Of a stretch of DNA of 45,060 bases, positions 181 through 36,731 are shown one piece after another. The stretch is from a virus. The notes under the pieces are model-generated. The model saw only the letters and a program-made list of their open reading frames with translations, did no database searches and was not told the DNA's origin. The number at the start of each line of letters is the position of its first letter. The stretch's first letter is position 1. Made by a program: the position numbers and the translations under genes. The stretch is taken from the IMG/VR virus record IMGVR_UViG_3300011420_000015, positions 1 through 45,060 of that record; one strand, written 5' to 3'.

Positions 181-438
181 TCATGAGCTTGTTTGCTCAC
201 CATTCGGATTCGGTACCATGATGTAGATGCCTGTGATGTTCTCTCGAACTGCAGAAAGAACAGCATTTTCATAAGCAACTTCTTGATCCGGACCCGATAG
301 CTCGCTTGAACTTCTTGTAACTCTATCCAAGTAGGCAGTGGTGTGGTACCCGGCCTGCTCATCATAAGCAAACCAATCATCCCACTGTGTCCATGGATTC
401 CATGGATTGTCCATGGTAGTGAGCATGTGCTGTGCCAT
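181..438 (-). CDS. Conserved small phage protein (PWNPWTQWDDW)
   Basis: This 85-residue acidic protein has a Trp-rich N-terminus, NPWNPWTQWDDW, followed by FAYDEQAGYHTTAYL. From memory, similar small proteins occur in many actinobacteriophages, but I know no function. There is no signal peptide or membrane segment. The ATG at 438 overlaps the TGA of the upstream RNA-polymerase-like gene by one base (TGATG), which suggests translational coupling. A GTG one codon upstream is possible but has no better ribosome site. It is the last gene of the minus-strand series, and a candidate terminator follows. Confidence 0.75.
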   Translation of the reverse strand: MAQHMLTTMDNPWNPWTQWDDWFAYDEQAGYHTTAYLDRVTRSSSELSGPDQEVAYENAVLSAVRENITGIYIMVPNPNGEQTSS

Positions 439-3083
439 CACCCACCATCCAAGGATGTCTTGAGTGTAGTGAGTGAGACACCTAGTGCACTGGCTACCTC
501 TGCCTGAGTAGCACCAGCAGCAAGCATGCGTGAGGCCCTTGCCTTGTATGCTGATGTCATCAGTGGCTTGGCCCTTGGTGTGGCTAGCTCCTTGACGGTA
601 GTCATGTCTGCATTGTCCAGTATTCGCTTGAGCTTGCTATTACTAACAGCTCCTGCCTGGATGGCAGCCCACTGGTTGGGTGTGATCTCGATACGATCCT
701 TGCGTGCACCGTACCGTGCTCTTGCTTCTTCCAATGCAAGAGACTTGAGCTTGGTTACCTCAGCCTTGTCCATGTCGGGGTTGGCTGCCCGCTTTGCTGA
801 GATGACGGTGTTTGCTAATAGCTGGGAGGCCCGCTCTTTTGGTGCATTCTTCAATGCAACATTCAATGCTGCATTGAGCTCGGCTACCTCAGGAGCAAAG
901 GTCTTCTTAGCTGACTCAGACCAAGGGGTAGCCTTGGTATTGACAGCTTCTTTCCTAGCCTGGTTAGCAAGGGCCTTCATTCTATTGGAGTGATCCGCAT
1001 AGAGGGACTCTCTTTGCGTACCCGATGATAGGTCGTGTGCATCCTTCACCGATTCCAACTTCTTGATGGTGGAGGTCTTAAAGATTACCTTCCCATCCTT
1101 AGTGTATGAAGCCCCGGTTTCCCGGAAGATCTTCTCACCAGTGACAGGATCCACCCTGAATGTACGACTGCGCTCAGGTACCCGAACAGGAGACTTCTTC
1201 TGAGACACAATCGTGGAGGCACCCCTATTACCACCACCTTGGTACTTCTGCTTGAGCTGAAGAATGCCACTATCTTGAGCAGACTTCTTGTAGTCGAGAT
1301 GGTGCTTCTCAGCATCGATCACAACCATAGAGTGTTTGACTGCACGAGCAAGCTCGTCGTTGTTGGCACCCTTGATGGTCATGTCTGTGATGAGATTCGA
1401 CACATTCCCCATCTCCATCTGCTTCGCCCTTGAAGACATCTTTGGCGCATCATCAGGAAGTTTATACTGTTGGGGATCGAAGCCCTTCAGTTGTTGCAGC
1501 GCGGGTTCGGACTTGATCTGCCCCTTAGTGTTGGGGATGACCAATACCGTGTCACCATCGAAGTCAGCACCAGACAGCCGCTTGGCTACCTCAGAGTTGA
1601 TTCCAATTGCATCGGTTGTGTCCTTACCAAGTGTTCGTTTTCCCTCAGTGTTTCGGTTGTTCACCGTAAGCTCAGGGATCTCGAACTTCCCACCATGCGG
1701 GAATCGAACTAGCACGACTCGCTCTCCATCATTGAAACTTGGAGCGTAGACCTCAGAGTCTTTCAGCGAGTTGATTGGAAGGATAACCCGAGTTGCCTGC
1801 CTAGGAAGTGCCGCGGCCTTGAGGTGAACCGCAGAAGCATCGGCATTCTCAGCAAAGTCCTCCAACAGTTTCTGCCGAACAGCAGGATTCGTCAGAGACA
1901 TGATCTCATCGAATTCCTTCTTGGCATCACTGTGAGACTTGTCCAGCTGCTGGGCGATCAATCTGGGGGATTGTTTCGACAAGAACTGAGACGAGAGGTT
2001 ATTAGACCATTCGCCCCACTTTCCTTCCTCATTGACGATGTTCATCGCAGAGGTAACCTTGGTCAAACGACCATGGCTGTCGTGATCGCCCAGCTGCCGA
2101 ACCACCGACCCAAATGGGTTATCGGGGTCATCTTTCAGAGCCTTCATTGCGTCGAGCTTGTTGCCCGTGCTGGACTTGTTTGTGTTGAACAGGAGATCCA
2201 CACCATCGGGAAGGTCATCTTTGTAGACAGCCATGCCCTTCAGGTAGTGAGTTCCATCCACCGCAATTCGGACCTGAGCGTAGTGCGCCTTACCGAGAGA
2301 AAGATCTTCTTTCCCGGGACGGACATAAATCAGACCGTCGAGGTCGCTGCCTCCCTGTTCCGCATAACGGATCCCAATGCGCTTTGAGCTCACTGAGATG
2401 GGAGGAAGAATGCCAAGGTAGGATCTTCCACCATCCTCGCTGTACTCCTGGATTTGCTTGATGCCACCCAGAGGAACGGCCTTGGCCTTGTCTCGGTATG
2501 TAGTGCCAGGAGGGCCCAACACTTTGACGTTGGTCTTGTGTCCGGTTCCAGCCTGATCCACCTGTACAGTGTGGACCGTGTAGCCTTCCTCCTTCAACAG
2601 AGCAACGGCAGCGCCGAGCTTCTCCTTGCTGATTCCAAGATGATTCTCCACCCCAGAACCGATGTCGATGTACTGCTTGTCGTCAACTTCACGCTTGAGC
2701 ATGCCAGCAGTAGACACGAGAATGTCCACCTTCTCCTTGGATGCAGCAGCCCTAAGGCCACGAACCGAGGACTCGGGAATGCCCATGCGCTCACCGATGG
2801 CGACGTTTGACATTCCCTTAGCAGCAAGGCGATTGACCTGATCGATCTTCTGCTGCTTCTGCTGGTTGTTGGCGATGGTACGAGCAGCTCGAAGCTGCGT
2901 GGTCGTGATGCCAGTTCCCTGAGCGATCTCAGTCTCAGAGAGACCTTGAGCCTTGAGGTTGGCCACGTAATCCAAGAACGTCTTGTTGCGAACATTCTGT
3001 GTACTTCCTGATCCCCACGGGTATCGCCCCGAACGACGAAGGATGCCGTAGTGAGCAAGATAGGTCTTGTCGTCGAGCTTCAC
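438..3083 (-). CDS. DFDGD-motif RNA polymerase-like protein with HTH segments
   Basis: This 881-residue protein contains GADFDGDTVLVIPN, with DFDGD at residues 507-511. That is the metal-binding signature of double-psi beta-barrel RNA polymerases, including the single-polypeptide YonO and crAss-phage enzymes. A conserved-looking segment (FPHGGKFEIPELTVNNRN) precedes it. The N-terminus has HYGILRRSGRYPWGSG (11-26), then two helix-turn-helix-like segments at about 36-73 and 81-110; a third closes the protein at about 849-881. I chose the GTG at 3083 because GGAGGA lies 6 bases upstream and it overlaps the previous stop as GTGA. The longer reading from 3104 has no ribosome site. The second barrel and other polymerase elements cannot be confirmed by eye. 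Many databases would leave this as hypothetical. Confidence 0.7.
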   Translation of the reverse strand: MKLDDKTYLAHYGILRRSGRYPWGSGSTQNVRNKTFLDYVANLKAQGLSETEIAQGTGITTTQLRAARTIANNQQKQQKIDQVNRLAAKGMSNVAIGERMGIPESSVRGLRAAASKEKVDILVSTAGMLKREVDDKQYIDIGSGVENHLGISKEKLGAAVALLKEEGYTVHTVQVDQAGTGHKTNVKVLGPPGTTYRDKAKAVPLGGIKQIQEYSEDGGRSYLGILPPISVSSKRIGIRYAEQGGSDLDGLIYVRPGKEDLSLGKAHYAQVRIAVDGTHYLKGMAVYKDDLPDGVDLLFNTNKSSTGNKLDAMKALKDDPDNPFGSVVRQLGDHDSHGRLTKVTSAMNIVNEEGKWGEWSNNLSSQFLSKQSPRLIAQQLDKSHSDAKKEFDEIMSLTNPAVRQKLLEDFAENADASAVHLKAAALPRQATRVILPINSLKDSEVYAPSFNDGERVVLVRFPHGGKFEIPELTVNNRNTEGKRTLGKDTTDAIGINSEVAKRLSGADFDGDTVLVIPNTKGQIKSEPALQQLKGFDPQQYKLPDDAPKMSSRAKQMEMGNVSNLITDMTIKGANNDELARAVKHSMVVIDAEKHHLDYKKSAQDSGILQLKQKYQGGGNRGASTIVSQKKSPVRVPERSRTFRVDPVTGEKIFRETGASYTKDGKVIFKTSTIKKLESVKDAHDLSSGTQRESLYADHSNRMKALANQARKEAVNTKATPWSESAKKTFAPEVAELNAALNVALKNAPKERASQLLANTVISAKRAANPDMDKAEVTKLKSLALEEARARYGARKDRIEITPNQWAAIQAGAVSNSKLKRILDNADMTTVKELATPRAKPLMTSAYKARASRMLAAGATQAEVASALGVSLTTLKTSLDGG

Positions 3084-3640
3084 GCCGCTTCCTCCATTCG
3101 CCACTGAGTGATGAGTTTGTCGAAGTGCACAATCTTGTCCATGATCGGACGGATCTCGGTGTGGTTGGGTTGGTGAACTTTGATCCCGTTCCCTTGGTAG
3201 ATGCGAAGCTCCATCGTGAGATCCTCAGGACGATGCATGTACTCAAGACAGAAGTACGCCGCGTAAACCAAAAGCTGATCCATGTGGACCGGCGAACGAC
3301 CCGTCTTCAGGTCGTGGACTCTAAGTACTGGATCGAAGAAACCAATTGCGTCCGCTGTTCCAAACGCATTGGCCGAGTAGACCAAAGGTTGCTCCGGTGC
3401 CAAACCCAGAAGGATCGAGTCGTTCACGTACATGTTCAGTGTCTTAGGTTCGTTGGGTAGTGGTTGCCCCAAACGAATAGCCATGGCAGCGAACTCATGA
3501 AGTTCATCACCACGGCGTGCTGCCTGTGCACTGGACCAGGAACGCTCCAGTTTCTCTTCGTCGTAGCGAAGCCAAGAGGCCTTGCTAGCCGAGAGAAAGG
3601 AATGCTGCCCCTGCAGATTCGAATGCGAGTTGAAGAGCAT
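3080..3640 (-). CDS. PD-(D/E)XK (Cas4/RecB-like) exonuclease
   Basis: This 186-residue protein carries HSFLSASKASWLRYDEEKLE, typical of the phage branch of RecB/Cas4-like nucleases, then GDELHEFAA and GTADAIGFFDPVLRVHDLKTG. The D of GTADAIG and the DLK of VHDLKTG fit the PD-(D/E)XK active site, with a following Gln (MDQLLVYA). Likely roles are DNA end processing in recombination or host DNA breakdown. The start at 3640 has AGGGAAG six bases upstream and overlaps the VRR-NUC gene by 56 bases. The longer upstream reading would lie entirely inside that gene. Its stop overlaps the GTG of the RNA-polymerase-like gene. Confidence 0.75.
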   Translation of the reverse strand: MLFNSHSNLQGQHSFLSASKASWLRYDEEKLERSWSSAQAARRGDELHEFAAMAIRLGQPLPNEPKTLNMYVNDSILLGLAPEQPLVYSANAFGTADAIGFFDPVLRVHDLKTGRSPVHMDQLLVYAAYFCLEYMHRPEDLTMELRIYQGNGIKVHQPNHTEIRPIMDKIVHFDKLITQWRMEEAA

Positions 3641-3902
3641 CCAGAACTTCCCTCTCGTTTTCAGGAAAGATAAATGCACCAAAAGACATGCCGCTCGCCT
3701 TCTCAACAAAGTACGGTTGATTGGGCTGAACTTCAGCATCTTCTGATGCTTTCACTTCCAACATTGCCCAGAACGGTCCCCAAAAGACCGTCAGGTCGGG
3801 TATCCCCTGTTGGTAACCAGTATCGTTTTTGATGATCCAGCATCCAGGGAAACGTAGCTCGATCCGCTTGATGAGCTGAGCTTGGTAGGCAGATTCGAGC
3901 AT
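3585..3902 (-). CDS. VRR-NUC domain nuclease
   Basis: This 105-residue protein matches the VRR-NUC family of PD-(D/E)XK nucleases. GIPDLTVFWG supplies the acidic residue, LEVKASEDAEV gives the E-x-K pair, and the Q of QPNQPYFVEKASG is the conserved glutamine. Phage members are small structure-specific nucleases that probably resolve branched DNA or nick replication intermediates. The ATG at 3902 has an AGGAGGTGA ribosome site just upstream. It is followed by a second nuclease gene in overlapping frame, so the two were probably expressed together. Confidence 0.82.
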   Translation of the reverse strand: MLESAYQAQLIKRIELRFPGCWIIKNDTGYQQGIPDLTVFWGPFWAMLEVKASEDAEVQPNQPYFVEKASGMSFGAFIFPENEREVLDALQLAFESAGAAFLSLG

Positions 3903-3976: not shown

Positions 3977-3988
3977 GTAATATCTATT
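3977..3988. repeat. Direct repeat GTAATATCTATT, copy 1 (flanks HNH gene)
   Basis: GTAATATCTATT lies here and again at 4497-4508, on the two sides of the HNH endonuclease gene. This copy contains the stop codon (TAG) of that gene. It also carries the TAATATCTA half of the palindrome at 4551-4566. Confidence 0.7.
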
Positions 3989-4481
3989 CGGTGAAGTCGT
4001 TGATCGGTCTGAAGTGCATTCCTGAGGGGAATACAACCGTTCGATTCATGGCTGCACTCAAGATTTCAGCGTCGATTAGCCCATACTTCAAGGCTGCTTC
4101 CCATGAGTTAGGGAAGGTCTCTCCGCTATTCACTTCATACACAGGAACGATGAATCCTCGCTTGCCGTTCCAGAATTGCTGATGGTATTTGATCGCAAAC
4201 CAGCGTGGACGCCACATCAGATTGTCCGCCGAGCAGTTCATCTTGTTTCCGTCCAGGTGGATAGGAGTGTCGAAACGACTGTTAGGTGGACGATCTAAGA
4301 ATGTCATCGCTACCAGGAGTGCAAGTGATCTCTTGTGCTGCTTCAGATCTCGGGAGAGTCCAACCATAGGATTCCCCTGTTGGTTCAGAGTAGGTTTCAC
4401 TGGGCGCTGCCAGTCAATTCTCCGAACGGCCCCGCTGTCGTGGATCTCGTAGTTGGAGAACCCGACCACCGTTTTCCACAT
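3984..4481 (-). CDS. HNH homing endonuclease with NUMOD4-like N-terminus
   Basis: This 165-residue protein starts with WKTVVGFSNYEIHDSGAVRR, a NUMOD4-type DNA-binding motif. It continues with an HNH core in which IHLDGNKMNCSADNLMW carries the H...N residues. The C-terminal part may hold a second NUMOD-like segment (YEVNSGETFPNSWEAA). Such proteins are free-standing homing endonucleases. The ATG at 4481 has AGGAGG five bases upstream; the GTG at 4487 abuts that site and is unlikely. The gene is bracketed by two 12-bp direct repeats and is set in AT-rich spacers, as expected of a mobile insertion. Confidence 0.85.
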   Translation of the reverse strand: MWKTVVGFSNYEIHDSGAVRRIDWQRPVKPTLNQQGNPMVGLSRDLKQHKRSLALLVAMTFLDRPPNSRFDTPIHLDGNKMNCSADNLMWRPRWFAIKYHQQFWNGKRGFIVPVYEVNSGETFPNSWEAALKYGLIDAEILSAAMNRTVVFPSGMHFRPINDFTE

Positions 4482-4496
4482 AGTCACCTCCTCGAG

Positions 4497-4623: not shown

Positions 4624-4651
4624 TAGATATTAAGTCGCAACCCAATATCTA
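4624..4651. repeat. Inverted repeat TAGATATT / AATATCTA
   Basis: TAGATATT (4624-4631) and AATATCTA (4644-4651) are exact inverted copies around a 12-base loop. The second arm includes the stop codon of the helicase gene. The stem is AT-rich with no U-run, so an origin or operator role seems more likely than termination. Confidence 0.5.
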
Positions 4652-5848
4652 CTTTTTGAGCCCAAAAGAGGACTCATTGAACGATTTCTTGGCTTTCAGT
4701 GCCTTTCTGATGGCCTGGTCGATTACAGAGTTCGAAATCAACGTGTGGTAGTTCAGGTCGACAAACGGCGTATTGAGTCGATCAATTCTTCCGTGAGCCT
4801 GGTGGAACATCTTGTAGCTGTAGGTGAGGGAGTAGAAACAAACAGTATCCGTGTCGACACAGTTCCACCCTTCAGAACCGGCAGCATATTGCACCAGATA
4901 CACCCACCGGTCTGTTTGTGGGATCGGCTGATGCTTATGTCCGTTCCACTCAGCAAGGGGCACATCGTCGCAAAGTCCACGTAAAGCCTCCAATTCGAAG
5001 TCGAAGTTGTAGAAGACGATGAGCTTGGGATGAGCAGCCATCAGTTTGCGCACGGCAGCAAGCCGCGAGGGATGACTGTTGACAATCTTCCTCAACACCA
5101 GGAAGAGCTCACTCACATCACGCAAGGGCCTGCCCTCGAAAACGTGCCACCGCTCCGCGAGAGCCTTGTGTTGCAAGTCTTTGTCGAACTCAACCTCTAC
5201 GTCGTAGGAGTGTCTGACTGTGTGCCGGACATAAGGCATTTCGACAAGGACCGCATTCCGGTGGCGCACCAGAGTTCCCACGTCCACGTATCGATCAACC
5301 TTAGGGAACTTGCTGAACGTGTTGTAGACGACATGCTGTCGTTTGAACTCAGTCCGGTTCTTGTAGAATCCGTTGGCAACGAAGACTGGAATGTAGTCAA
5401 GCCACGTATCGCCTGGTGTAGCGCTGAGAAGCACCCACTTGTTATGCTTGGCAATCGTAATGAAGTCCTTTGACCACTGACCGGATCCAACCAATCTCTG
5501 TTCGTCGAAGATGAAGAACGCATCGTGTACCTCCTTGTACTTACCGATGTTGTTCCAGCTGTCAATGACCATCCGGACGTTCCCGACAGCTATCTCGGGG
5601 TTCTTTACCAATCCGAAGTTGATCGCGTCTTTCTCCCAGTCGCCATGGTCTCGTTTCTTGGCGGTGGTGATGATGTAGATGTCAGTAGGCTCACGAACAC
5701 TGAGCTGATCGCCCATGACACCCTTGCACACTTTCGTGTAGTAGTAGGCGAGGGACGTCATCGACTTGCCCGTCCCTACACCTCCCACTAGAATTGCCCC
5801 GTTGTGGAGCTCATCTACCGCTTTCTGCTGATGCGGATAAAGCTCCAC
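4649..5848 (-). CDS. SF2 DNA helicase (DEAD/SNF2-like)
   Basis: This 399-residue protein shows the superfamily 2 motifs in order. Q-like YPHQQKAV is at residues 4-11, Walker A GGVGTGKS at 22-29, and a variant motif II FDEQR near 115. LLSATPGD is motif III, and [10 protein letters not shown] near 350 is motif VI with its arginine finger. The DEQR in place of DEAD/DEAH is a variant seen in some phage helicases. It probably unwinds or remodels DNA during replication or recombination and lies beside two nucleases. The GTG start at 5848 has AGGAGGA just upstream. Confidence 0.85.
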
Positions 5849-9211: not shown

Positions 9212-9409
9212 CTAGTTGTTCGTGCTGTCCCACAGCTCGAGAGCGTGGTCGTGAAGGCCATCGTCCATGTCGGCTCCGATGGCCCGTTGCAGATGCTCTC
9301 GCACCATGTTGTTGGCGGCCTTCTTGGCTTTCTCCACCGATTCAGTGGAGCCACCCGAGAAGGGCGTGTCGCACCTAGGGCAGTACGACGTGGCGTTGTA
9401 GAGGGTCAC
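9212..9409 (-). CDS. Small CPRC-containing protein (65 aa)
   Basis: MTLYNATSYCPRCDTPFSGG carries one CxxC pair, then a helical region (TESVEKAKKAANNMVREHLQ) and a His-containing end (GLHDHALELW). A single CxxC plus His residues could make a zinc knuckle. The GTG at 9409 overlaps the preceding TGA as GTGA; AGGAGG lies upstream at a rather long spacing. No known function. Confidence 0.68.
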   Translation of the reverse strand: MTLYNATSYCPRCDTPFSGGSTESVEKAKKAANNMVREHLQRAIGADMDDGLHDHALELWDSTNN

Positions 9410-9924
9410 TCGATCGACTCCTCCTGAGGACTAAGGTCCCCGTTGGCGAGCAGATTTGCGTACTTCTGCTCGAGGTAGTCCTCGTTGATCCAGACGAACA
9501 TCGTCTTGAGGTACGCCGAGACTCCACGCTTCTCCATGGCGGTGCCCTCATGCATCACCCAGTTGAACGGGTTGACGATGAAGTCCACCTTTGCCATGTC
9601 GACGTAGTCGAGCGTCTCTACCTCCTTGAGACCAACCTCGTTGCGATTGGTCGAGGAGATGAGAACGATCCGCGGTGGCTTGATCTTGTAGCTCACCGTC
9701 ACCTGCAGATGGGCCTGCGGTGGGGTGTTCGGGTCGTCGTCCTCACGCTTCTTGAGGTACTTGACGTTCCACCCGTCGGACTCCAGCTGTGCTGCCAGCT
9801 CGGGCACAAGGAGGACGTGGAAGGACCTCTCGCCCTCCCGGTTGTACATCCCCTCCTCACCCTTGAAGTTTTTGAAGATGAGTCTCGCGTCCTCGAACAG
9901 GACGGTGTCCTCAACTCGTGGCAT
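9406..9924 (-). CDS. Conserved phage protein, possible ssDNA-binding protein
   Basis: This 172-residue protein has segments widely conserved in actinobacteriophage replication regions: LIFKNFKGEEGMYNREGERS, DGWNVKYLKKREDDD, PPRIVLISS and VDMAKVDFIVNPFNW. The beta-rich layout and position beside the replicative polymerase fit an OB-fold single-strand binding or replication accessory protein. That function is inference from context and remembered similarity. The ATG at 9924 has GAGGAGA upstream. Its stop overlaps the next GTG. Confidence 0.7.
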   Translation of the reverse strand: MPRVEDTVLFEDARLIFKNFKGEEGMYNREGERSFHVLLVPELAAQLESDGWNVKYLKKREDDDPNTPPQAHLQVTVSYKIKPPRIVLISSTNRNEVGLKEVETLDYVDMAKVDFIVNPFNWVMHEGTAMEKRGVSAYLKTMFVWINEDYLEQKYANLLANGDLSPQEESIE

Positions 9925-10116: not shown

Positions 10117-13100
10117 CTAACTGACGAACTCCTCGAAGGAGCCGTATTTCTCGATGGACTTCTTGGCTTCCTCTGCGAGGCCTTCGAAGTAATTCATGTT
10201 GACGCAATTCATACCCTTGGCTTCCGCCATCTCAGACGGCAACCAGAGGTAGTTGGAGGTGCCGGTGACCTTGTAGTGCTTTCCGTCCTTGACTCGGTAC
10301 AGAACCGCACCGCCTTCGCCCTCCTTTACGGGGACGAATTTTCCGACTCGTCCGACAAAGACCATGCGGTCTGTGATCGGATGCTCCGTAGCCATCGGAG
10401 TGTCATACTCGAAGTCCAGGTACATGGAACCCTGGGTAACCTGCTTGGTCTCACACAGGTCATCGAATGTGACTACCTCTTGAGAGAACAACGTCTTGAA
10501 CACGTATGGGTGCTGGAACTCCGCACCTGTCGCTGTCCATTGACCGGCCTCTCTAGCGATGTACTGCGCCTTGTCGATCAGGCAGAACTTCTCGTACGTT
10601 GTCTCGTGCTCGAAGTTGTAGCCGTACTTTGCACCGAAGTTGACGACCTCGTCGATGTCTTCCTGAGTTGCACCCGGGAGTTTGATGGAGTCCGTCTTGA
10701 TGTGAGCGACGGTGAGACCCTTCTCCTGGCACGCATGCTTCAAGTCGATCATGAAGAGAGCGCCCCGCTTGGCAACGATGTTGTCGCGGTTGCGGATGTC
10801 ACGGAATGCGTTGTCGAACCTTGCCGACGTGAGTCCGTAGACGATGTTGATGATGATCTTCAGTGCATAAGCCAATGCATCGGCATCGGCGGTGTCCTGA
10901 AGGAAGGGCGCAAGCTTGCCCCCAAACATGCTTCTCGCTGAGTCAAAGTCCTTGCGCTTGATCGCGATCCGAGCATCCATGAGGGCACGGAAGTTCGGTG
11001 TGTACTCGCCGAAAAGATTGAGTTGAACAATCGACGTAGGATGCATGCTAGTCGCGTCAAGCACCGGCACATTTTCGTAAATGCCCGGCTCAGCGTGGAC
11101 ATAGCCTCCTTCAGACGGATCTTCTCCTCGGTACTGAGACTTTCCAGCGTCGAAGACATAGCCCTCGAATTCCTCCTTCAGATTGGTGTAGATGAAGCTC
11201 GCCTGCGGGTTCTTGTCGTTCCCGAAGATGATCTTCGCTGCGTGTCGAGCAGTGGTGTCGTTGACGGTGAGACCCGAAAGCTCAGCAAGAATCTGTCGAG
11301 CGATGAAGTCCTGCTTTCGTGCTTCGTGCGTGGCCTCGGTGGAAGTCACGTCATTGCAGCAGTAATCGACAACGGTGTCCCACAATTCCTCCGGAACCGG
11401 CTGGTCCCAAGGGATGTCGAGTTCCTTGTGGGGGAGACCCAACACGATCTGCCACATCTTGAGACTCTGCTTGATCGAAGCGTAATCGTAGATGTCGGTG
11501 TAACTGACGCTGTACGCATTGCCGAACATCGCGTTGCGGTCCTTGTCCACGATGATCTTCTGGCTGAGTTCGAACAGATCCGCAATTGAGTAGCCCATCG
11601 ACGCTGCGTAGATGATGTGGTTGTCATAACGACGACAGTTGTATCCCACCAACTTGAGCTTCAGTAGACCCTGAACCTCCAGCGCAGACGGATTGATCAA
11701 CTTCACGATCTCGGTTTCGCCGGCGTACTTGTAGCAGATGACGAAGAGGTTCGGGTAAACCTCGATGTCGAAGAAGACCAGACGGTCGTCCTTGACGAAT
11801 GCGTCAACGCCCTCGGATTGATCCAAGGATGCCCCGGCTTCGCCTTCGGACTTGAACTTCATCGACTGAACGATCTTCAAACAGTTGAAGGATTGGTTGG
11901 TGCTGTTGAGCGCGAACGCCATGATTGGCGAACGCATGTCAGTCAGGTCGTACTCGTACTCCTTCTTCTCGTACGCCTCGTCCAGGAGATGCTTGATGAA
12001 GTCGATACTCGGCTTCGTTCCTGGGTGAATCTCCTTTCGGAGGTTGCGAGCGATGAGAGCGCGAAGCCCAACCTCGCTCTTGATCGTCTGGTCATCTAGC
12101 ACCTTCTTCTCCTTCTTGGGCAACGATCCGTCGTGGATTGTTGCAATAGGAATGTTGTTGCAATGGGAGAGCCGTCGGCGAAGTGCAGCGTCACCCAGCA
12201 GCGTCTTGACCTCAATTCCATTACTGTGATGGACTGCAAGCTCGGAAACGTCTCCTTCATAAAGATAGTGAAGGTGCACACCTGCTCCACCTTTGCTGAG
12301 CTCAGCGTAAGTAGGGGGCCATGACGAAGCCGCCTGTAGATTTTCTTCAAGTGACTTCTCACCCTTCTCATCTTTGAGATCGAAATCGATAACGACCATC
12401 TTCTCCGGCACCTTCACGTAGTGAATTTTGCTGGTGTCCAGATCCTTGAGCGTGGTGGTAACGTTCACCCACTTGTGCTCTGGCCGATCGACTCCCATCT
12501 TTTCGTCGTAGATCTCATACTGAGCCGGCCAGTCAGCAGCCAACTCGTCGAAGAAGGAGTGTGTTTCCTCGATTACCAAAGAGAACACCTTCTCCTTCCT
12601 TGCACGAGACTTGAATCGGCTTGCGTTGAATCCGGAGTAGAAACTCCGAACCTGCTGGCCGTTGAACTCCCCGCGGTCCTTGAACTCGTCGAAGTAGTTT
12701 CGCAACTCTTCTCGGAACTTGTACTGCGGTAATTTTCGGTCGATCCCCGTGTCATCGCAGAACTCCTTGTACAGGTTGTATGCCTGCGACAAGGTGGTGC
12801 TGTTCTGATCCTTGAAGATGTCGTAGTTTGCCTCGATGAAGTTGAAGAACACATCGGTCTGCAGCATCATTTCGAGAGGCCGGTAACCGTTGTAGTAGTT
12901 CTTCCCCATATCTCGGTAGACGTCCAGACAATGCTGGGCAATTGCACCGAGTTCGAAGTCGATCCTCGACATCAACGTGTTGTAGTGATTCGACGGGATG
13001 ATCACACCCGTTGGGTGTACGTCGATGAGTCGTCGGATGATTCCCGATTTCGCATCTGTGATCTTGACTGGTTGATTCGTGCCCATGAACATGAAGCAAG

Positions 13101-13905
13101 ACGGACTGAAGTCGTAACCCGATTTGTACTTCTCGTTCATGCGCATTGGCTCATGGGCAACGATCGAGTTCAGACGAGTGTTGTCCTCGATCTTTGACAA
13201 GTCACCATCATGCTGGATCGCAACCAAGGGGTTGTCCTTGAATGCTTCCGTGGCGAATGTGCCGTTGTTACTGCCCAGAGCCTTAGCGTCGAAGGTCGTT
13301 GTGTAACCCTCGAACAGTTTCTGGATGATCCCCAGGATTGTCGATTTGCCGGTCCCAGCAGGCCCGTACAGAACCAAGAACTTCTGGATCCGCTTGGCAT
13401 CTCCGCTGACAACCGCACCAATCGCCCATTCGATCTTTGCCCTTTCTTCTACGCTGTAGAGCGTCCCGACAAGCTCGTCCCAGGCACTGTAGTCACCTGG
13501 TTCGAGAGCATAAGGCAGACGGCGACTAACGTGATCGGACTTCTTCACCGGTGTGTTGGCGAAGGTCAAATTCATGTCCAACTGATGTGCGTTGTCACTG
13601 ATGTTCTGCACAAAGCTTCGAAAGTTCTTCCAGCCTTGGTTGCCGAACGACGAGAGGTACTTGACGTTGTACTCGGCGCCGGTCTTCTGTCGAGCCTCGT
13701 TAGCGTAACGCTTCAAATGCGCGTCCACGATACGCTGAACGGCGTACTCGTCTGTCGACCAGAGGTTTGCCTCTTCGTCCCAAACAGCGTAAAAGCCACG
13801 ACCGCGAACCATGAGGTCCTTTGACCGCCCAACTACGAAATCTGGAAACATGTTCTCCAGGGGCTCACCCTTCACCTCTTTCGTACAAATCCGATAGAAA
13901 TCCAT
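10117..13905 (-). CDS. SF3 helicase - AEP primase - exonuclease/DNA polymerase fusion
   Basis: This single 1262-residue frame carries a whole replication set. Residues 1-150 are uncharacterised. A D5/SF3-like helicase follows, with Walker A GPAGTGKS at 181-188 and HDGD, MRMNEKYKSGYDF and MGTNQP downstream. An AEP-type primase core comes next: DFD at 507-509, GVHLHY at 542-547, and EVK at 565-567. Then comes a DEDDy proofreading exonuclease (D713/E715, N756...D761, Y848...D852). The polymerase is family-B-like, with motif A VLDATSMHPTS (D950), motif B K1016...N1020...YG and motif C IKTDS (D1072). Motif C lacks the first Asp of the usual DTDS. ATG at 13905 has GAGGAGGG upstream. No intein or frameshift is seen. 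Confidence 0.88.
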   Translation of the reverse strand: MDFYRICTKEVKGEPLENMFPDFVVGRSKDLMVRGRGFYAVWDEEANLWSTDEYAVQRIVDAHLKRYANEARQKTGAEYNVKYLSSFGNQGWKNFRSFVQNISDNAHQLDMNLTFANTPVKKSDHVSRRLPYALEPGDYSAWDELVGTLYSVEERAKIEWAIGAVVSGDAKRIQKFLVLYGPAGTGKSTILGIIQKLFEGYTTTFDAKALGSNNGTFATEAFKDNPLVAIQHDGDLSKIEDNTRLNSIVAHEPMRMNEKYKSGYDFSPSCFMFMGTNQPVKITDAKSGIIRRLIDVHPTGVIIPSNHYNTLMSRIDFELGAIAQHCLDVYRDMGKNYYNGYRPLEMMLQTDVFFNFIEANYDIFKDQNSTTLSQAYNLYKEFCDDTGIDRKLPQYKFREELRNYFDEFKDRGEFNGQQVRSFYSGFNASRFKSRARKEKVFSLVIEETHSFFDELAADWPAQYEIYDEKMGVDRPEHKWVNVTTTLKDLDTSKIHYVKVPEKMVVIDFDLKDEKGEKSLEENLQAASSWPPTYAELSKGGAGVHLHYLYEGDVSELAVHHSNGIEVKTLLGDAALRRRLSHCNNIPIATIHDGSLPKKEKKVLDDQTIKSEVGLRALIARNLRKEIHPGTKPSIDFIKHLLDEAYEKKEYEYDLTDMRSPIMAFALNSTNQSFNCLKIVQSMKFKSEGEAGASLDQSEGVDAFVKDDRLVFFDIEVYPNLFVICYKYAGETEIVKLINPSALEVQGLLKLKLVGYNCRRYDNHIIYAASMGYSIADLFELSQKIIVDKDRNAMFGNAYSVSYTDIYDYASIKQSLKMWQIVLGLPHKELDIPWDQPVPEELWDTVVDYCCNDVTSTEATHEARKQDFIARQILAELSGLTVNDTTARHAAKIIFGNDKNPQASFIYTNLKEEFEGYVFDAGKSQYRGEDPSEGGYVHAEPGIYENVPVLDATSMHPTSIVQLNLFGEYTPNFRALMDARIAIKRKDFDSARSMFGGKLAPFLQDTADADALAYALKIIINIVYGLTSARFDNAFRDIRNRDNIVAKRGALFMIDLKHACQEKGLTVAHIKTDSIKLPGATQEDIDEVVNFGAKYGYNFEHETTYEKFCLIDKAQYIAREAGQWTATGAEFQHPYVFKTLFSQEVVTFDDLCETKQVTQGSMYLDFEYDTPMATEHPITDRMVFVGRVGKFVPVKEGEGGAVLYRVKDGKHYKVTGTSNYLWLPSEMAEAKGMNCVNMNYFEGLAEEAKKSIEKYGSFEEFVS

Positions 13906-13919
13906 CTACCCTCCTCTCA

Positions 13920-14459: not shown

Positions 14460-15202
14460 CACCCATCCCACGCCTCGCGCACTCGGAAGCGACGAGTTGT
14501 GTCCTCATGCTGGAAGCCGAGAACATCTTCGGAGTAGGACTTGTTGCTTCGGACGATCTCGAAGATCATCTCCATCTCTTCGTTGCAGACGTAGACGGTG
14601 TTGGGATCGTTCGCACCGTGTCCGAACCTCTCGAGTGTGAGCTCACCAACGTACTTGTGCTGCTCCGGGATTGCTTCATCCCTGGAATCCGTCAAGGTGT
14701 CGTCGCCCTCGTAGTACGTGAGCTGACCCTCTTCGAATTCCCACTCGTTCGTGTAGAACTCGTCGTGCGAGATGATGTACGGTACGCCGTTCCGACGCTC
14801 AAGTTCTTCGTCAGACTGGACCCAAGAGGGTGCCGGACTTTCGAAAGCGTTGTGCTCGGCGACCGGAAGGGGGGCAGCCTCTGCCTCGATCTCCTTCTCA
14901 GCCTCGGCCATCCTGCCGGCGATCCGTTCCAGAACTTCCTGAGGCACCTCGTCGGAGGTAGTGTCGTACTGATGCTTCGACTGAAGATCCTCCTCGTCCA
15001 GCAACTGGCTCGCCAGCCACTCGGGGTCGGGCTTGTTCAGACTCTGGTAGAAGGCCTTCGTCTGCTTGACCTCCTCCTCCAGCTTCTTCTCGAACTCTGC
15101 GGACAAGGTCCGTTTCGCATAGGCGAAGCCGGAGGCAAGTCCCACCCCCAGGCAGATGGCAGAGACCCCGCCAAGGATCGCAGTGTGTTGGCGTGTCCAC
15201 AT
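14459..15202 (-). CDS. Membrane-anchored protein with acidic C-terminal part
   Basis: This 247-residue protein has one N-terminal transmembrane helix (ILGGVSAICLGVGLASGFAYA, about 8-28), then a charged helix (SAEFEKKLEEEVKQTKAFYQ). A central acidic linker (about 100-125) is followed by a folded C-terminal part with ISHDEFYTNEWEFEEGQLTY and VYVCNEEMEMIFEIVR. The C-terminal module resembles one seen in other phage proteins, but its role is unknown. The ATG at 15202 overlaps the TGA of the DUF6353-like gene, suggesting the two products work together at the membrane. Confidence 0.72.
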   Translation of the reverse strand: MWTRQHTAILGGVSAICLGVGLASGFAYAKRTLSAEFEKKLEEEVKQTKAFYQSLNKPDPEWLASQLLDEEDLQSKHQYDTTSDEVPQEVLERIAGRMAEAEKEIEAEAAPLPVAEHNAFESPAPSWVQSDEELERRNGVPYIISHDEFYTNEWEFEEGQLTYYEGDDTLTDSRDEAIPEQHKYVGELTLERFGHGANDPNTVYVCNEEMEMIFEIVRSNKSYSEDVLGFQHEDTTRRFRVREAWDG

Positions 15203-16167
15203 CACGACCGCCGCTTCCGGCGAAGAGCCTTGTCGGAGTGAGCCCAGATCGGCTCAACCTCAGCGAGCTTTCGGTGGATCTCTCCGTCGACATTGAAGTC
15301 GATGAAGATACCCTCACCGTAGATGACGAGATCTGCGAGACGGTCCCGAGCGTCGTCCTCCCAGATGCCGAAGTTCACGTAGCTGTCGCCGACGTGGTCC
15401 GCGTCACCAGGCTTGAACAGCCAACCCAGAGTCGCGCCGGCCTCCGTGTGATCGAAGCCGAGCTCCTCGAGAGCCTCGTTGAGGAACAGATGTCCCCGCA
15501 TCCGCAGCTTGTCGTTCAGATAGTTTTCTCGCTGGCGAAGAACCATGATGTTGGCTTCCGGCGACCCTTCGACGAAGTTGCGGTTGGTGTCTGCGCTGTA
15601 GTACTGCGCATACGGAGAACCACCATTCGGGCCGGCAAACTTCTTGAGCTTGACGCCCTTGCCGTCCTTGCTCGAGACCGCCACCGTTTGGGCATCCAGA
15701 TATACCTCTTTCTCCTTGTCCTCGCCAAGCTCCGTTTGGACTCGGCTGCGGTACTTCTTGAAGGTGGCATCCAGGCCGGCGTATGCGGCGCTGAGCGCAG
15801 CGTTTCGGGACTGAAGGATGTTGTGGCTCTTCGTCAACGCGGCGATGGAAACGGAGCCCAGGATGATCGAGGGCGCGTACATCTTGGTGATCTGTGCCGT
15901 AGTCCGGGCGTACAGGTAGATCTTGTCGTGCTGCCTGTCCTGCTCCGAGTACTGCTCGTGCTGCATGACCTTGATTCCGATCATGGTCTTCTCGTGGTCG
16001 AGAAGAACTTCTTCGATCTTGAGGGTTGCCTTGCACGCCAGGACCGTGGCCCCGACAACGCCCACGACGCCGCCGACGAACAGCAGCTTCGGGGAGTTTG
16101 CATCAACCTTGAGTGCGGTGCGGCCAACGGCACGCGTGACACTCGCAGGAATGAACTTGCTGATCAT
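15202..16167 (-). CDS. DUF6353-like phage membrane protein (321 aa)
   Basis: The N-terminal region SPKLLFVGGVVGVVGATVLACKATLK, a basic stretch with KIEEVLLDHEKTM, and a second helical span (ITKMYAPSIILGSVSIAALT) match the layout of DUF6353 proteins of Gram-positive phages. A soluble domain of about 180 residues follows. Two membrane segments are expected near 28-46 and 95-112. A shorter paralog lies at 18293-19054. The ATG at 16167 has AAGGAGAAG upstream. The family assignment is from memory of the sequence pattern; no function is known. Confidence 0.72.
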   Translation of the reverse strand: MISKFIPASVTRAVGRTALKVDANSPKLLFVGGVVGVVGATVLACKATLKIEEVLLDHEKTMIGIKVMQHEQYSEQDRQHDKIYLYARTTAQITKMYAPSIILGSVSIAALTKSHNILQSRNAALSAAYAGLDATFKKYRSRVQTELGEDKEKEVYLDAQTVAVSSKDGKGVKLKKFAGPNGGSPYAQYYSADTNRNFVEGSPEANIMVLRQRENYLNDKLRMRGHLFLNEALEELGFDHTEAGATLGWLFKPGDADHVGDSYVNFGIWEDDARDRLADLVIYGEGIFIDFNVDGEIHRKLAEVEPIWAHSDKALRRKRRS

Positions 16168-18292: not shown

Positions 18293-19054
18293 TCAAGGGT
18301 GAATCTTGTCATACCCCCTGATGGGTGCCTCAGTGAACTTGATCAGGAACGCCGGCTTCTCGTCGTCCGTGATCGTCGTGGTGATGTGCGGGTCGAGAAG
18401 GGTGTTGCTCCAGCCGAAGTCGTCACCGTCCGGGACCCTTGGAAGACCGATCTTGTCGTACCAGTCGTTTACGGACGCGTAAACCGACGAGTTGATCTTC
18501 CAGTTGATGTCGTTGATCGCCTTCTTGACGTCCTGCATGGTGCTCATGAACGGCCGCATCGTACGGGCATCCACGAAGATGCTGTCACCAGTTCCGATTA
18601 TCACCATGTTGGAGTTGATGCCAGCTCTGGCCATCTGGTCTTGGGCGACGGCGTCTCGGATTTCCGTCTCCTTCTTCTTGCCGATCGTCTCCTGCACCTT
18701 CTCACGATACTCCTGGAATCCACGCTCGGAGATCGTGTAGGCCGCTGCCAGTGCTGCCGCACGACGGGTTCCGATTCGATTTGCCAGGATGATCACCGAA
18801 ATGGTGAGCATTGCGGAGGTAGCTGCTGGAATATAGAGCTTCCAGAGAAGAAGGAACTGTTCCTTGCGGTCCAAATCCGTGTTGATGTACATGGTCGGAG
18901 GAGTCTCCTGAAGAAGCTTTGCTGCCTTCAGTGTGGCCTTTCCGGTCAGGTACGACGTAGTCAAGACACCGGCAGCGCCGATGCCGGTCAAGATCAGTGG
19001 GGAGTTGTCTGCGACTAACTTCTCGCTCCTCACAATGATGGTGTGAAGGCTCAT
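18293..19054 (-). CDS. DUF6353-like membrane protein, shorter paralog (253 aa)
   Basis: It shares the layout of the 321-residue protein: NSPLILTGIGAAGVLTTSYLTGKATLKAAK, then a second span (LYIPAATSAMLTISVIILANRI), a helical segment (ALAAAYTISERGFQEYREKV) and a soluble C-terminal part ending in ITDDEKPAFLIK. The KATLKA turn occurs in both. Two membrane helices are expected near 18-36 and 65-85. The ATG at 19054 has GAAAGGA upstream. Its leader is unusually long: promoter copy D begins 86 bases away. Confidence 0.72.
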   Translation of the reverse strand: MSLHTIIVRSEKLVADNSPLILTGIGAAGVLTTSYLTGKATLKAAKLLQETPPTMYINTDLDRKEQFLLLWKLYIPAATSAMLTISVIILANRIGTRRAAALAAAYTISERGFQEYREKVQETIGKKKETEIRDAVAQDQMARAGINSNMVIIGTGDSIFVDARTMRPFMSTMQDVKKAINDINWKINSSVYASVNDWYDKIGLPRVPDGDDFGWSNTLLDPHITTTITDDEKPAFLIKFTEAPIRGYDKIHP

Positions 19055-19937: not shown

Positions 19938-20303
19938 CTATGAATCGAAGGTGGGAGGAGGCAGCTGAGCGTCGTTGGTCTCGATCTTGAGGACCAACTT
20001 GTCCTTGGTGAGAAGATCGACCGGATCTGTCTTGTCCAAATCGAGTCCATGAAGGATTGCCGGGTCGTTCGAGTTGACCTCGATGCTTCCGTCGTACCTG
20101 TCCTCGCTCTTGTTGTAGCGATTGGACTGGATTCCGACCAGGGCACCCAGAAGGGTGGTGATCACGACGGCACCCTTGGCGACCTCGTTCTCGTAGGGCA
20201 GAGCGTCGTTGAGTGCAGCGTCCATTCCCACGTATGCGGTGGTCAACGCCGGAATGGCGATCAAGGTCGTGTACTTGATCACGTCGTAGAGCTTGTTCTT
20301 CAT
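19938..20303 (-). CDS. Holin (Dp-1/r1t-like)
   Basis: MKNKLYDVIKYTTLIAIPAL starts the first transmembrane helix, and VVITTLLGALVGIQSNRYNK ends the second. This matches the two-span holins of the Dp-1/r1t type in Gram-positive phages. The remaining 60 residues are an acidic soluble tail. It would form membrane lesions that release or activate the endolysin at lysis time. The ATG at 20303 overlaps the preceding TGA as ATGA, with GGAGGAAATAG just upstream. The endolysin gene is 22 kb away, so the lysis genes are split. Confidence 0.8.
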   Translation of the reverse strand: MKNKLYDVIKYTTLIAIPALTTAYVGMDAALNDALPYENEVAKGAVVITTLLGALVGIQSNRYNKSEDRYDGSIEVNSNDPAILHGLDLDKTDPVDLLTKDKLVLKIETNDAQLPPPTFDS

Positions 20304-20989
20304 CTATTTCCTCCCGCTGGATTGCCAGTGCACGTCACCGTGACTGGACCTGAAGTGGTTTGGAACGTCAGCGTGATGGTGCCGAGTCCCGTGAAAGTGC
20401 ATGTACCAGATTGAATCTGGTCGTTGGGGTCTGGATCGTCAATTTCCGGGTTCTGGATCTCTTCGTCCTGAACTTCCGGATCTTGGTTCTCGTCATCCTG
20501 AATTTCTGGATCCTGGTTCTCCGGATCCTGGTTCTCAGACTCTTGGTCCTCAGAATCTTGAACCTCGTCTTGCTGGTTCTCATCCTGCTGGTTTTCCTGG
20601 TTCTGATTCTCTGGATCCTGATTCTCCGGGTCCTGAATTTCTGGATCCTGGATCTCTGGGTCTTGATTCTCAGACTCTTGTATTTCCCCGTCTTGCACTT
20701 CTCCTTCGTCTTGCGTGACGGCCTCTGCGTTCTCACACATAGCCTTCACATCTTCATCACTGATGCCGGGTCCGAAAGTCCCGTTCTTACACGCGAAGGC
20801 GATCTGCTGAGCCAACGTCTGACTTGTCTCCTTCTCGCTGAAATATGCCTTCCACGACACGCCGAGAAGTGCCGCAAATGTGATCAACCACAAAACAAGC
20901 AGGATGATCAGAATGACACGAGTTGGAGAATCCTTACCCTGTTGGGCAGGTTCCTTTTGCATGTCGTCGAGATGTGTCGGTTCGCTCAC
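20300..20989 (-). CDS. Membrane protein with pentapeptide acidic repeats
   Basis: After a cytoplasmic start a transmembrane helix (VILIILLVLWLITFAALLGV) is followed by a short Cys-containing domain. Then about 17 five-residue repeats of the type Q-D-P-E-N/I/V cover residues 99-183. A Thr-rich C-terminal segment with two Cys residues closes the protein. The repeat region is highly acidic, extended and probably outside the membrane. Similar Pro/Asp/Glu-rich repeats occur in lysis-region proteins of actinobacteriophages. Spanin-like envelope spanning is a possibility, not shown. The GTG at 20989 overlaps the preceding TGA. Confidence 0.72.
   Translation of the reverse strand: MSEPTHLDDMQKEPAQQGKDSPTRVILIILLVLWLITFAALLGVSWKAYFSEKETSQTLAQQIAFACKNGTFGPGISDEDVKAMCENAEAVTQDEGEVQDGEIQESENQDPEIQDPEIQDPENQDPENQNQENQQDENQQDEVQDSEDQESENQDPENQDPEIQDDENQDPEVQDEEIQNPEIDDPDPNDQIQSGTCTFTGLGTITLTFQTTSGPVTVTCTGNPAGGNR
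20441..20695. repeat. 15-bp coding repeat array, about 17 units
   Basis: The DNA of the pentapeptide region consists of about 17 imperfect 15-base units related to TCCTGGTTCTCCGGA on the plus strand. Unit differences fall mostly at the last residue (N, I, V or D). Such arrays can expand or contract by slippage. Confidence 0.75.
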
Positions 20990-30593: not shown

Positions 30594-31337
30594 TCACATA
30601 GAGCTGATCTTGTACTTGATTGGCGAGAGAAACAGAGCGGAGGGCCACCGAATGGTGAATATATCTCCGACTAACGTGAATGCTTCATCTGGACCGGTGG
30701 CCGTCCACGTGCCGTCACCGTTATCCGTTACGACCAAGACCGCATGGTCCAGGAAGAGATCGATCACCTCCGAGGTCTCGGGGAATCTAGGATCCGTCGT
30801 GGAAGACCCATAGATGATGTCCTCCAGGGCTTCTACAGCAGCCTCCGGAGCAAGATCGGTGTCTACAACCAGATGTGCCGTCGGATGAATGCCCTCGGTA
30901 ACTTCTGGAGTCGCAAATATGTCCCATGTAAGCATGGTTACTTCAAGTTCATCGTTCTTGGAGGAATATGGCAGATCTTGATCAACCGCCAGAGCATTCC
31001 ACACCAGATGAATCAAATGACTCTCTCCGATGTCATCTCTCCAACTGAGATCAAACGGCTTTCGACTCTGATTCGTCTCTAAATCTCCGCTATTTCCCAA
31101 ATATGGATCAAATTCATCAGGATACGTCCATGCTTCAACGGTTAGACCAAAATCTTCTTTGGTTTGTGTCGTAGCGAACGGAACACCATCGTAGTAAAGC
31201 GTCGAAATGTTCGTGTCGTCCGCTTTTTGGGTTACTTTCGTCAATCCAACCCAAGGAACAGGCCCTTCGGTCAAATATAGAACTCCTCTGTCGACTCCTG
31301 ACTGGATCCTGTTTTCAGAAGTCCAGTCCAGCCTCAC
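30594..31337 (-). CDS. Major-tail-protein paralog 3
   Basis: From a GTG at 31337 (overlapping the previous TGA as GTGA) this 247-residue protein aligns by eye with the major tail protein. Shared pieces are VDRGVLYL, VPWVGLTKVTQ, TVEAWTYPDEFDPYLGN, FDLSWRDDIG, HLIHLVWNALA and a long match ending DPRFPETSEVIDLFLDHAVL. The C-terminal region has a GDGTWTATG turn and a hydrophobic end, not the Ig-like domain. It may form special tube or tail-tip rings. The longer reading starts inside the neighbouring paralog and is rejected. Confidence 0.72.
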   Translation of the reverse strand: MRLDWTSENRIQSGVDRGVLYLTEGPVPWVGLTKVTQKADDTNISTLYYDGVPFATTQTKEDFGLTVEAWTYPDEFDPYLGNSGDLETNQSRKPFDLSWRDDIGESHLIHLVWNALAVDQDLPYSSKNDELEVTMLTWDIFATPEVTEGIHPTAHLVVDTDLAPEAAVEALEDIIYGSSTTDPRFPETSEVIDLFLDHAVLVVTDNGDGTWTATGPDEAFTLVGDIFTIRWPSALFLSPIKYKISSM

Positions 31338-32017
31338 AAATAACCCAGATTGATGAAATTGACCAGCTGTTGCTGAGTCGGAAGCACGGGAAGCCCCGGA
31401 GGAATCAGCGGCGTAACTCCAACCGCAGTTCCATAGAGCAAGTTCTCGAAAGCCTCCAGATCGGTGGGATCCAGAACCCTTGTGTCGAGAATGAGATGCG
31501 ACGTGGGCTTGTATGTCACACCACTGTATGAAGCTGGCCTCGGTGGAACACCGTAAATCGTCCAAGACAACGTGGGAGCTTCTGGGGATTCCGACTTGGT
31601 ATTCCACACTCGCTCAGATGGTGTCGCCATGCAATTGTAAACCAGGTGGATCTTGTGCCCGGCTTCTTCATCGATATCGTCCCCGACTATCGTTCGGTAC
31701 GTAAAGCTGAACGGAATTCTCGGCTGTCCAGTAGCGAACAGACCCATGGCGACGTGAGCTGTCCCATCACATGGACCGAACTCTTCTGGCGCTGCGTACG
31801 CCTCAAGGGTGGCTTGGTAATCCTCATACGCGATGACGTCAAGATACTTAACCCCGTCGTAGTAGAAAGATTCCTGCTCACCTCCGGAGACATTCTCGGT
31901 CAGGTTCACAAGACCCACCCAGGGAACACCTTCCCCCGTCACCGGGTAGAGGACTCCATGATCAAGGCCCGTTTGGTATTCCTTTGTGCCTGGGGTGTTC
32001 CACACAAGTCTGGTCAT
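31334..32017 (-). CDS. Major-tail-protein paralog 2
   Basis: This 227-residue protein shares the full tube domain with the gene at 32593: TGLDHGVLYPV, GVPWVGLVNLTENVSGGEQE, LEAYAAPEEFGPCDGTAHVA, SFTYRTIVGDDIDEEAGHKI, HLVYNCMATPSE and TSHLILDTR. It lacks the C-terminal Ig-like domain and ends in FINLGYL. It may cap or decorate part of the tail. The ATG at 32017 follows AAGGAGGATAG. The 180-residue chaperone-like gene separates it from paralog 1. Confidence 0.78.
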   Translation of the reverse strand: MTRLVWNTPGTKEYQTGLDHGVLYPVTGEGVPWVGLVNLTENVSGGEQESFYYDGVKYLDVIAYEDYQATLEAYAAPEEFGPCDGTAHVAMGLFATGQPRIPFSFTYRTIVGDDIDEEAGHKIHLVYNCMATPSERVWNTKSESPEAPTLSWTIYGVPPRPASYSGVTYKPTSHLILDTRVLDPTDLEAFENLLYGTAVGVTPLIPPGLPVLPTQQQLVNFINLGYL

Positions 32018-32592: not shown

Positions 32593-33477
32593 CTACGGCC
32601 GGGTGAACTCTGTGTGCGTGTCTCCGGTGAGCGTGTAGCTCGTCGAAGCCGGAACAGCGTCCACGTCGGCGGTGGCACCAGACGCGATGGCCGGCTGAGC
32701 ACCAGGAGCCTTGTTGACTCCGTTGATCTTCCACTGCACACCAGTGACGGTGGGCAGGGTGATGACACCCGTGCCGGACACGAACGTGGGCTTGTTGGCG
32801 TCCAGGTTCATGTTGACCGCGGTGGCCACACCCACGATGGAGCCGACCTCCTCGGGCAGAGGCAGACGCGGGTCGGTGCCGACCGTGCCGTAGAGGATTT
32901 CCTCCAGTGCCAGCAGGTCGGCCGGAGCAACCTCGGTCGAGTTGACGGTGATGTGCGAGGTCGGCCGGAAGCCCGGGACCTCGACGCCGGTCGTGGTGAC
33001 CTCCCACGAGAAGGCCGCGAGCTCCGGGGAGTCGTTGACCGTCGCGTGAGCGACCTCGGACGGCGCCGCGTCGGCGCCGTAAACAAGGTGAATCTCGTAG
33101 CCGAGGGCGTCACCCACGAGGTCATCGCCGAGAAGATTTCGGTAAGAGAACCCGAAGGTCTCCCGAACCTGCTGACCAATCTTGACGCCCGGAACCAGCT
33201 CCCCGGTTCCGTCGCAGGCCTCGAACTCCAGCGGGTAGTTGAACGCCTCGATGGTCGCGCCGAAGGTCTCGGCCGACTTCAGGTTGGCGTATACGCTGTT
33301 GTCCGCGTACTGCTTGTTGCTTTCGGCTCCCGCAGGACTCTCGGTGACGGTCGTGAGGCCAGGCCACGCGACACCCTCGTCGTAGAGGCCGGCTCCGTTG
33401 CGCAGGTAGAGCACGCCTCGGTCGACACCGGTCTTCCACTTCTTCTGGCCAGCGGCGGCCCAGGTAAGTGCAGTCAT
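32593..33477 (-). CDS. Major tail protein with C-terminal Ig-like domain
   Basis: The first 205 residues form the tail tube domain (WKTGVDRGVLYLRNGAG, EGVAWPGLTTVTESPAGAES, FNYPLEFEACDGTG, FGFSYRNLLGDDL and YEIHLVYGADAAPSE). The last 75 residues form an Ig-like module (PTFVSGTGVITLPTVTGVQW then GATADVDAVPAS). The same module, clearly related, ends the major capsid protein. High GC and good ribosome spacing (GAAAGGAACATC before the ATG at 33477) fit a strongly expressed gene. Two paralogs follow downstream. Confidence 0.88.
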   Translation of the reverse strand: MTALTWAAAGQKKWKTGVDRGVLYLRNGAGLYDEGVAWPGLTTVTESPAGAESNKQYADNSVYANLKSAETFGATIEAFNYPLEFEACDGTGELVPGVKIGQQVRETFGFSYRNLLGDDLVGDALGYEIHLVYGADAAPSEVAHATVNDSPELAAFSWEVTTTGVEVPGFRPTSHITVNSTEVAPADLLALEEILYGTVGTDPRLPLPEEVGSIVGVATAVNMNLDANKPTFVSGTGVITLPTVTGVQWKINGVNKAPGAQPAIASGATADVDAVPASTSYTLTGDTHTEFTRP

Positions 33478-36246: not shown

Positions 36247-36266
36247 TTTGACTGTCTCCTTTCGAT

Positions 36267-36731
36267 TCAATGACGACGGCCCTCGGTTGCCGCCGGTGTC
36301 TTGGACTTGGATGAAGCAGCCGAGGTGATCTTGGCCACATCCGACTTCAGGGTGCGGATGATGTCGTCCTTTCGGTCGAGCATCTCCCTTCTCTTGGCAA
36401 ACCGCTCTTTGTCGGTTGCCTTGGGATGGGAATCAACCCAGGAGCGAAACTCCTCGGTCAATCTGCTAAGCTTTTCCTTTGCCTGGTCAGCCAGACGTTG
36501 GATTGCAGCAGACCGTTGAGACCCGACATCAGCCGCAGCCTTGCTGCCGATGGCAGTGACTCGCGACTTTCGGGTTTTGGTGGAGGACATGTCGGAGTTC
36601 GACTGGTCCCCTTGGCCCTTGTTTCGGCCCTTGAGCTTCCTGGTTCTCAGGTAGTACTCGTGGGCTTTTCGAGGGTCGTAGGCGTGGGCGAGAAAGTCCT
36701 TGGCGAACTCCTCCCCGAGGTGAGTGCTCAT
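36267..36731 (-). CDS. Head morphogenesis-associated protein (154 aa)
   Basis: The N-terminus contains AYDPRKAHEYYLRTRKLKGR, a motif widely seen in capsid-region proteins of Gram-positive phages, often near MuF-type or scaffold genes. The rest is a basic helical coiled coil (AAIQRLADQAKEKLSRLTEE, RREMLDRKDDIIRTLKSDVA). It lies between portal and capsid, so an internal scaffold or packaged protein is likely. The ATG at 36731 overlaps the portal stop (TGATG). Confidence 0.68.
   Translation of the reverse strand: MSTHLGEEFAKDFLAHAYDPRKAHEYYLRTRKLKGRNKGQGDQSNSDMSSTKTRKSRVTAIGSKAAADVGSQRSAAIQRLADQAKEKLSRLTEEFRSWVDSHPKATDKERFAKRREMLDRKDDIIRTLKSDVAKITSAASSKSKTPAATEGRRH

Follow-up and report, generated by a model that had tools for sequence, protein, structure and literature searches.

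The open reading frame at positions 10117–13905, on the minus strand of the 45,060-nucleotide stretch of viral DNA analysed here (IMG/VR record IMGVR_UViG_3300011420_000015, hereafter the window), is best explained as a whole as a HelPrimPolB replicase, with a probability of about 0.96. The initial annotation had read helicase, primase, proofreading exonuclease and polymerase from the sequence of this one chain, and our comparisons support all four predicted activities. The helicase-primase-PolB order was named HelPrimPolB by Kazlauskas et al. 2020, in an account that assigns it to the EpsilonN-like clade, describes its deviant motif C (PMC7544198) and attributes the architecture to Kazlauskas 2016. 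In that group an SF3 helicase and a PrimPol domain lie N-terminal to PolB, and the window protein appears to be built likewise. Its predicted place in the group is based on homology along the whole chain to GP55 of lactococcal phage 1706, which was purified and described as a 'four-in-one replicase' by Zhang et al. 2025 (NAR gkaf542; PMC12205980). Such replicases are already known and characterised, and the protein of the window is an ordinary, if divergent, example. A near-complete replisome on one polypeptide had been called rare; this holds relative to all replicases, but as a type it is a widespread known phage replicase, with more than 1000 HelPrimPolB homologues reported (PMC7544198, PMC12205980).

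The frame runs from an ATG at 13905 to a stop at 10117–10119 and encodes 1262 aa with zero internal stops; a Shine-Dalgarno sequence, AGGAGG, can be read at 13910–13915, 4 nt before the ATG. The single uninterrupted frame of the initial annotation is therefore present, with each of its motifs at the residue given. Across 91 aligned full-length relatives these motifs are conserved to a degree well above chance. Over its full length the protein belongs to PHROG 4210 (E=0). Members of this family in actinobacteriophages, such as Gordonia phage Gill gp62 and Rhodococcus phage ReqiPepy6 gp072, are 62–63% identical to the window replicase along the whole chain and are annotated 'DNA primase/polymerase', a name that omits the helicase.

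Residues 1–430 (12616–13905) comprise an N-terminal region and a predicted SF3/D5-like helicase. Pfam DUF5906 matches residues 179–292 at 5e-14 and Pox_D5 matches at 0.001. The Walker A motif is GPAGTGKS at 181–188, where it had been placed, and its K187 is invariant among 91 aligned family members, in which D233/D235, N277 and R291/R292 are also invariant or nearly so. These features argue for an SF3 (D5-like) helicase at the N-terminus, as in HelPrimPolB proteins. The domain is homologous to that of the D5-type phage primase-helicases of PHROG 1829 and 1156; in those proteins, however, the helicase is C-terminal to the primase and the chain has no polymerase. The reversed order that had been noted is confirmed here, since helicase residues 1–430 precede a primase domain at 440–605.

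That primase domain (12091–12588) is predicted to be an archaeo-eukaryotic primase (AEP) of the PriS-like type, with the motifs D507-F-D509, H544-L-H546 and E565-V-K567. D507, D509, H544, H546, E565, K567 and R576/R577 are invariant in the 91 aligned sequences. When residues 428–705 were modelled with AlphaFold (pLDDT 89) and the model was searched against the PDB, hits 1–10 were all NrS-1 or pRN1 PrimPols, with E-values of 1e-5 to 8e-4, and the first unrelated fold followed at E=0.055. A viral structure library likewise returned primases and primase-helicases, and Pfam Prim-Pol matches 22 of 41 relatives of the replicase. The helical domain and loops depart from those of NrS-1, which keeps the TM-scores of this segment down at about 0.36; it is the E-values and probability given by Foldseek that support the match. 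The DFD/HLH/EVK triad proposed from the sequence thus proved sound on both counts, invariance and modelled fold, and an AEP/PrimPol domain is indicated between helicase and polymerase. NrS-1 PrimPol and pRN1 ORF904 share this core fold, but they place the primase before the helicase, prime and extend with one active site and have a different helix-bundle domain. Residues 608–690 (11836–12084) form an alpha-helical domain that is the counterpart of the aHD of GP55. In the model, four helices follow the AEP core (184–196, 203–220, 228–239 and 245–253 in the numbering of the model), and Y652 and F664 are the aligned counterparts of GP55 Y655 and F667, so that a helical domain with the priming residues follows the core, as in HelPrimPolB.

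The remainder of the chain is assigned to a DEDDy 3′–5′ exonuclease (residues 705–860; 11326–11793) and a family B polymerase (residues 930–1262; 10120–11118). The exonuclease motifs are D713-I-E715, R759-Y-D761 and Y848...D852, of which D713, E715, D761, Y848 and D852 are invariant in the 91 aligned sequences; PHROG 1252 matches residues 697–901 at 1e-41. In the polymerase, motif A is D950, motif B K1016...N1020..YG and motif C K1070-T-D1072-S (KTDS at 1070–1073). Among the positions counted in the same 91 sequences, D950, N1020, Y1023, G1024, K1070, T1071 and D1072 are invariant, and a profile of the domain matched E. coli DNA polymerase II in the PDB (E=4e-6), followed by archaeal PolBs. 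Both sets of motifs had been recognised from the sequence, at 713–852 and 950–1072, and both hold; together they point to an exonuclease and a C-terminal family B polymerase, as in HelPrimPolB proteins. The earlier description of motif C can be refined. Canonical PolB enzymes have two aspartates in this motif (DTDS), whereas a lysine stands in place of the first in the window protein. This substitution characterises the group as a whole, invariant in the 91 sequences including GP55, and marks the predicted polymerase as one with the deviant HelPrimPolB motif. The lysine is compatible with polymerase activity because GP55, with the same residue, is an active polymerase.

Comparison with GP55 carries these assignments furthest. 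The two proteins (1262 and 1317 aa) are 40.6% identical over 1219 aligned residues, and they have in common the domain order, the extra helical domain, the motif C lysine (VKTDS) and the surrounding replication cassette. Purified GP55 has a helicase activity that depends on UTP or dTTP, makes RNA primers with 5′-CCAAC-3′ as the preferred site, combines 3′–5′ exonuclease with efficient polymerase activity, dimerises through its helicase domain and contains a new helical domain that is essential for priming (PMC12205980). Mutants at K189, D509, Y655, F667, D712, E714 and D949 were reported in the same study and these residues are essential; they correspond to K187, D509, Y652, F664, D713, E715 and D950 of the window protein, so that 7/7 of the essential residues compared are kept, including two in the extra alpha-helical domain. 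These activities have been shown for GP55 itself; by analogy, we infer that the window protein shares them, including the unusual nucleotide preference. CCAAC occurs 55 and 79 times on the two strands of the window, with no clear enrichment relative to permutations of the same letters.

The same mechanism as that of GP55 would be expected for the window protein. The N-terminal helicase would unwind the template, and a short RNA primer would be made by the central AEP domain together with the helical domain at its C-terminal end. The C-terminal polymerase and its exonuclease would extend and proofread this primer, with the helicase driving strand displacement. Two subunits probably dimerise through their helicase domains, as in GP55, one priming and the other extending, and the adjacent PF24083 ssDNA-binding protein probably acts together with the replicase. 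Unwinding, priming, extension and proofreading in one chain would amount to a minimal replisome, useful for de novo DNA amplification. That case was already made for GP55 in 2025; the window contributes a natural variant of another lineage, diverged to 41% identity, which would be useful for testing the generality of the dTTP/UTP helicase, CCAAC priming and dimer of GP55.

Other readings of the frame were weighed against this one. Nothing except its unusual length favours the idea that two or more genes were fused by a sequencing or assembly error, and we give that idea practically no weight. A tblastn search with the replicase matched 429 phage records, 252 of them at ≥80% coverage, and one unbroken frame is likewise seen in phages of Gordonia, Rhodococcus, Arthrobacter, Streptomyces, Microbacterium and Lactococcus, among others, all sequenced independently. 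IMG/VR viral contigs gave at least 570 matches, those aligned being full-length open frames with the same domain order. Bacterial genome contigs added 115 relatives, many of them prophages in Bacilli and Clostridia, with some in Bacteroidales and other bins. Relatives of full length thus number 252 in annotated phage records and run to hundreds in viral contigs, so that the window replicase is not a sequencing artefact, and GP55 was moreover expressed as one protein (PMC12205980). The joining of two genes by error, against which the initial annotation had guarded, is already refuted by this comparison of independent genomes. A natural split of the helicase was suspected in Streptomyces phages Bing and Thiqqums, which gave two-piece matches, and was ruled out; no split form was found, because both phages carry the complete fusion together with a separate paralogue. 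This paralogue (Bing L087:7983–8438; Thiqqums L091:3998–4495) is a short AAA+ protein encoded upstream of the fusion, 29% identical to the HelPrimPolB helicase core; it may be an additional SF3-like ATPase or a regulatory one.

Two further readings accept the single chain and dispute one of its activities. The segment at 440–640 could be a degenerate AEP kept for DNA binding or bridging, with priming by host DnaG or the phage RNA polymerase. At the level of sequence, the AEP segment matched nothing in the PDB significantly, the window protein itself has no Pfam match there, and the same phages also encode an RNA polymerase. Against this, DFD, HLH, EVK and R576/R577 are invariant in 91 sequences, the significant PDB fold matches are to AEP primase-polymerases only, where failure to match an AEP fold had been named as grounds for rejection, and D509 and both helical-domain residues required for GP55 priming are kept. 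We regard a degenerate primase as very improbable. Slightly less probable still is a weak or specialised lesion-bypass polymerase that is not the replicase. Such an enzyme would fit the lysine that replaces the usual first aspartate in 91/91 sequences, and archaeal B2 enzymes, also one-aspartate PolBs, are weak bypass polymerases (PMC7544198). However, GP55, with the same VKTDS motif, is active at 1.25 nM and copied M13 in 0.2 min (PMC12205980), and the search of the window proteins, which took in a minority of the small ORFs, revealed no second DNA polymerase gene.

A HelPrimPolB replicase is also what the neighbouring genes of phage 1706 accompany. There the order is replicase, ssDNA-binding protein, helicase, endonuclease, exonuclease and 'RNA-dependent RNA polymerase', and the window repeats both the set and the order, all on the minus strand. 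The replicase (10117–13905) adjoins a PF24083 ssDNA-binding protein (9406–9924; Pfam 1.3e-50). Then come an SF2 (DEAD/SNF2-like) helicase (4649–5848; Pfam DEAD 6e-6, PHROG 62), a VRR-type nuclease (3585–3902; PHROG 93 endonuclease 5e-11, with Pfam VRR_NUC at 0.03, below cut-off), a Cas4/RecB-like exonuclease (3080–3739; PHROG 3953 exonuclease 2.8e-69) and an RNA polymerase (438–3104; PHROG 4291, E=0). A NUMOD4/HNH homing-type endonuclease (3984–4487, minus strand) has been inserted in the cassette, with the VRR nuclease to one side of it and the helicase to the other.

The RNA polymerase, of about 888 aa with helix-turn-helix motifs at both ends, has a QDE-1-like two-barrel fold in a structure model (pLDDT 80.6), which matched QDE-1 (6e-8), phage P74 gp62 (3e-6) and RDR2 (2e-5). 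A DFDGD active site at residues 513–517 of the 887-aa query is invariant in 37 sequences; with the modelled fold, it indicates a QDE-1-like RNA polymerase. In many actinophages the protein is annotated merely as a 'helix-turn-helix DNA-binding protein'. The window draws attention to it as a constant partner of the replicase. Compared as genus totals across 50,697 phage records, counts of the two genes are equal for the large groups (Arthrobacter 95, Gordonia 55, Streptomyces 54, Lactococcus 13, Siphovirus 12, Curtobacterium 7). The RNA polymerase is present in 46/50 replicase-bearing IMG/VR records, the other four being shorter than 37 kb and probably fragments, and in the reverse direction the replicase is present in 25/30 records with the RNA polymerase. 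All 26 host genomes with the replicase also have the RNA polymerase, on the same contig in 25 (median gap 12 kb). The single other genome is [Ruminococcus] torques ATCC 27756 (G087; L262), in which the replicase is on contig C35 and both the RNA polymerase and the ssDNA-binding protein are on C26, reflecting misassembly or two elements.

The ssDNA-binding protein, used as a control gene, follows the replicase just as closely (248 phage records, 25/26 prophage genomes, the same phage genera). The co-occurrence therefore does not establish a link particular to replicase and RNA polymerase: the pairing is a property of a conserved module, and shared inheritance of that module explains it with no direct functional link. 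We consider it unlikely that HelPrimPolB, the PF24083 protein and the QDE-1-like RNA polymerase make up a single obligate unit for replication, with the RNA polymerase taking a direct part in copying the genome; on such a reading it may, for example, open or prime the origin, beyond transcription alone. We did not find the role of this RNA polymerase or its pairing with the replicase addressed in the cited literature (PMC7544198, PMC12205980).

Several other genes of the window, all on the minus strand, deserve mention. The product of 20300–20989 shows one apparent membrane segment and, after it, a long tract of QDPEI/QDPEN-type repeats, and no PHROG match was found for it. Two PHROG 2152 paralogues, at 15202–16167 and 18293–19054, are 26% identical and have apparent membrane segments. 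Three adjoining paralogous major tail proteins (30594–31607, 31334–32017 and 32593–33477; 35–40% identity) all belong to PHROG 2645, and the true start of the 30594–31607 frame probably lies about 90 codons inside it. A head maturation protease at 34147–36270 (PHROG 3270, 707 aa) is possibly fused to a capsid protein. Its residues 638–704 and residues 230–293 of the tail protein at 32593–33477 are a common C-terminal domain (44% identity) that may be a surface domain of Ig-like type.
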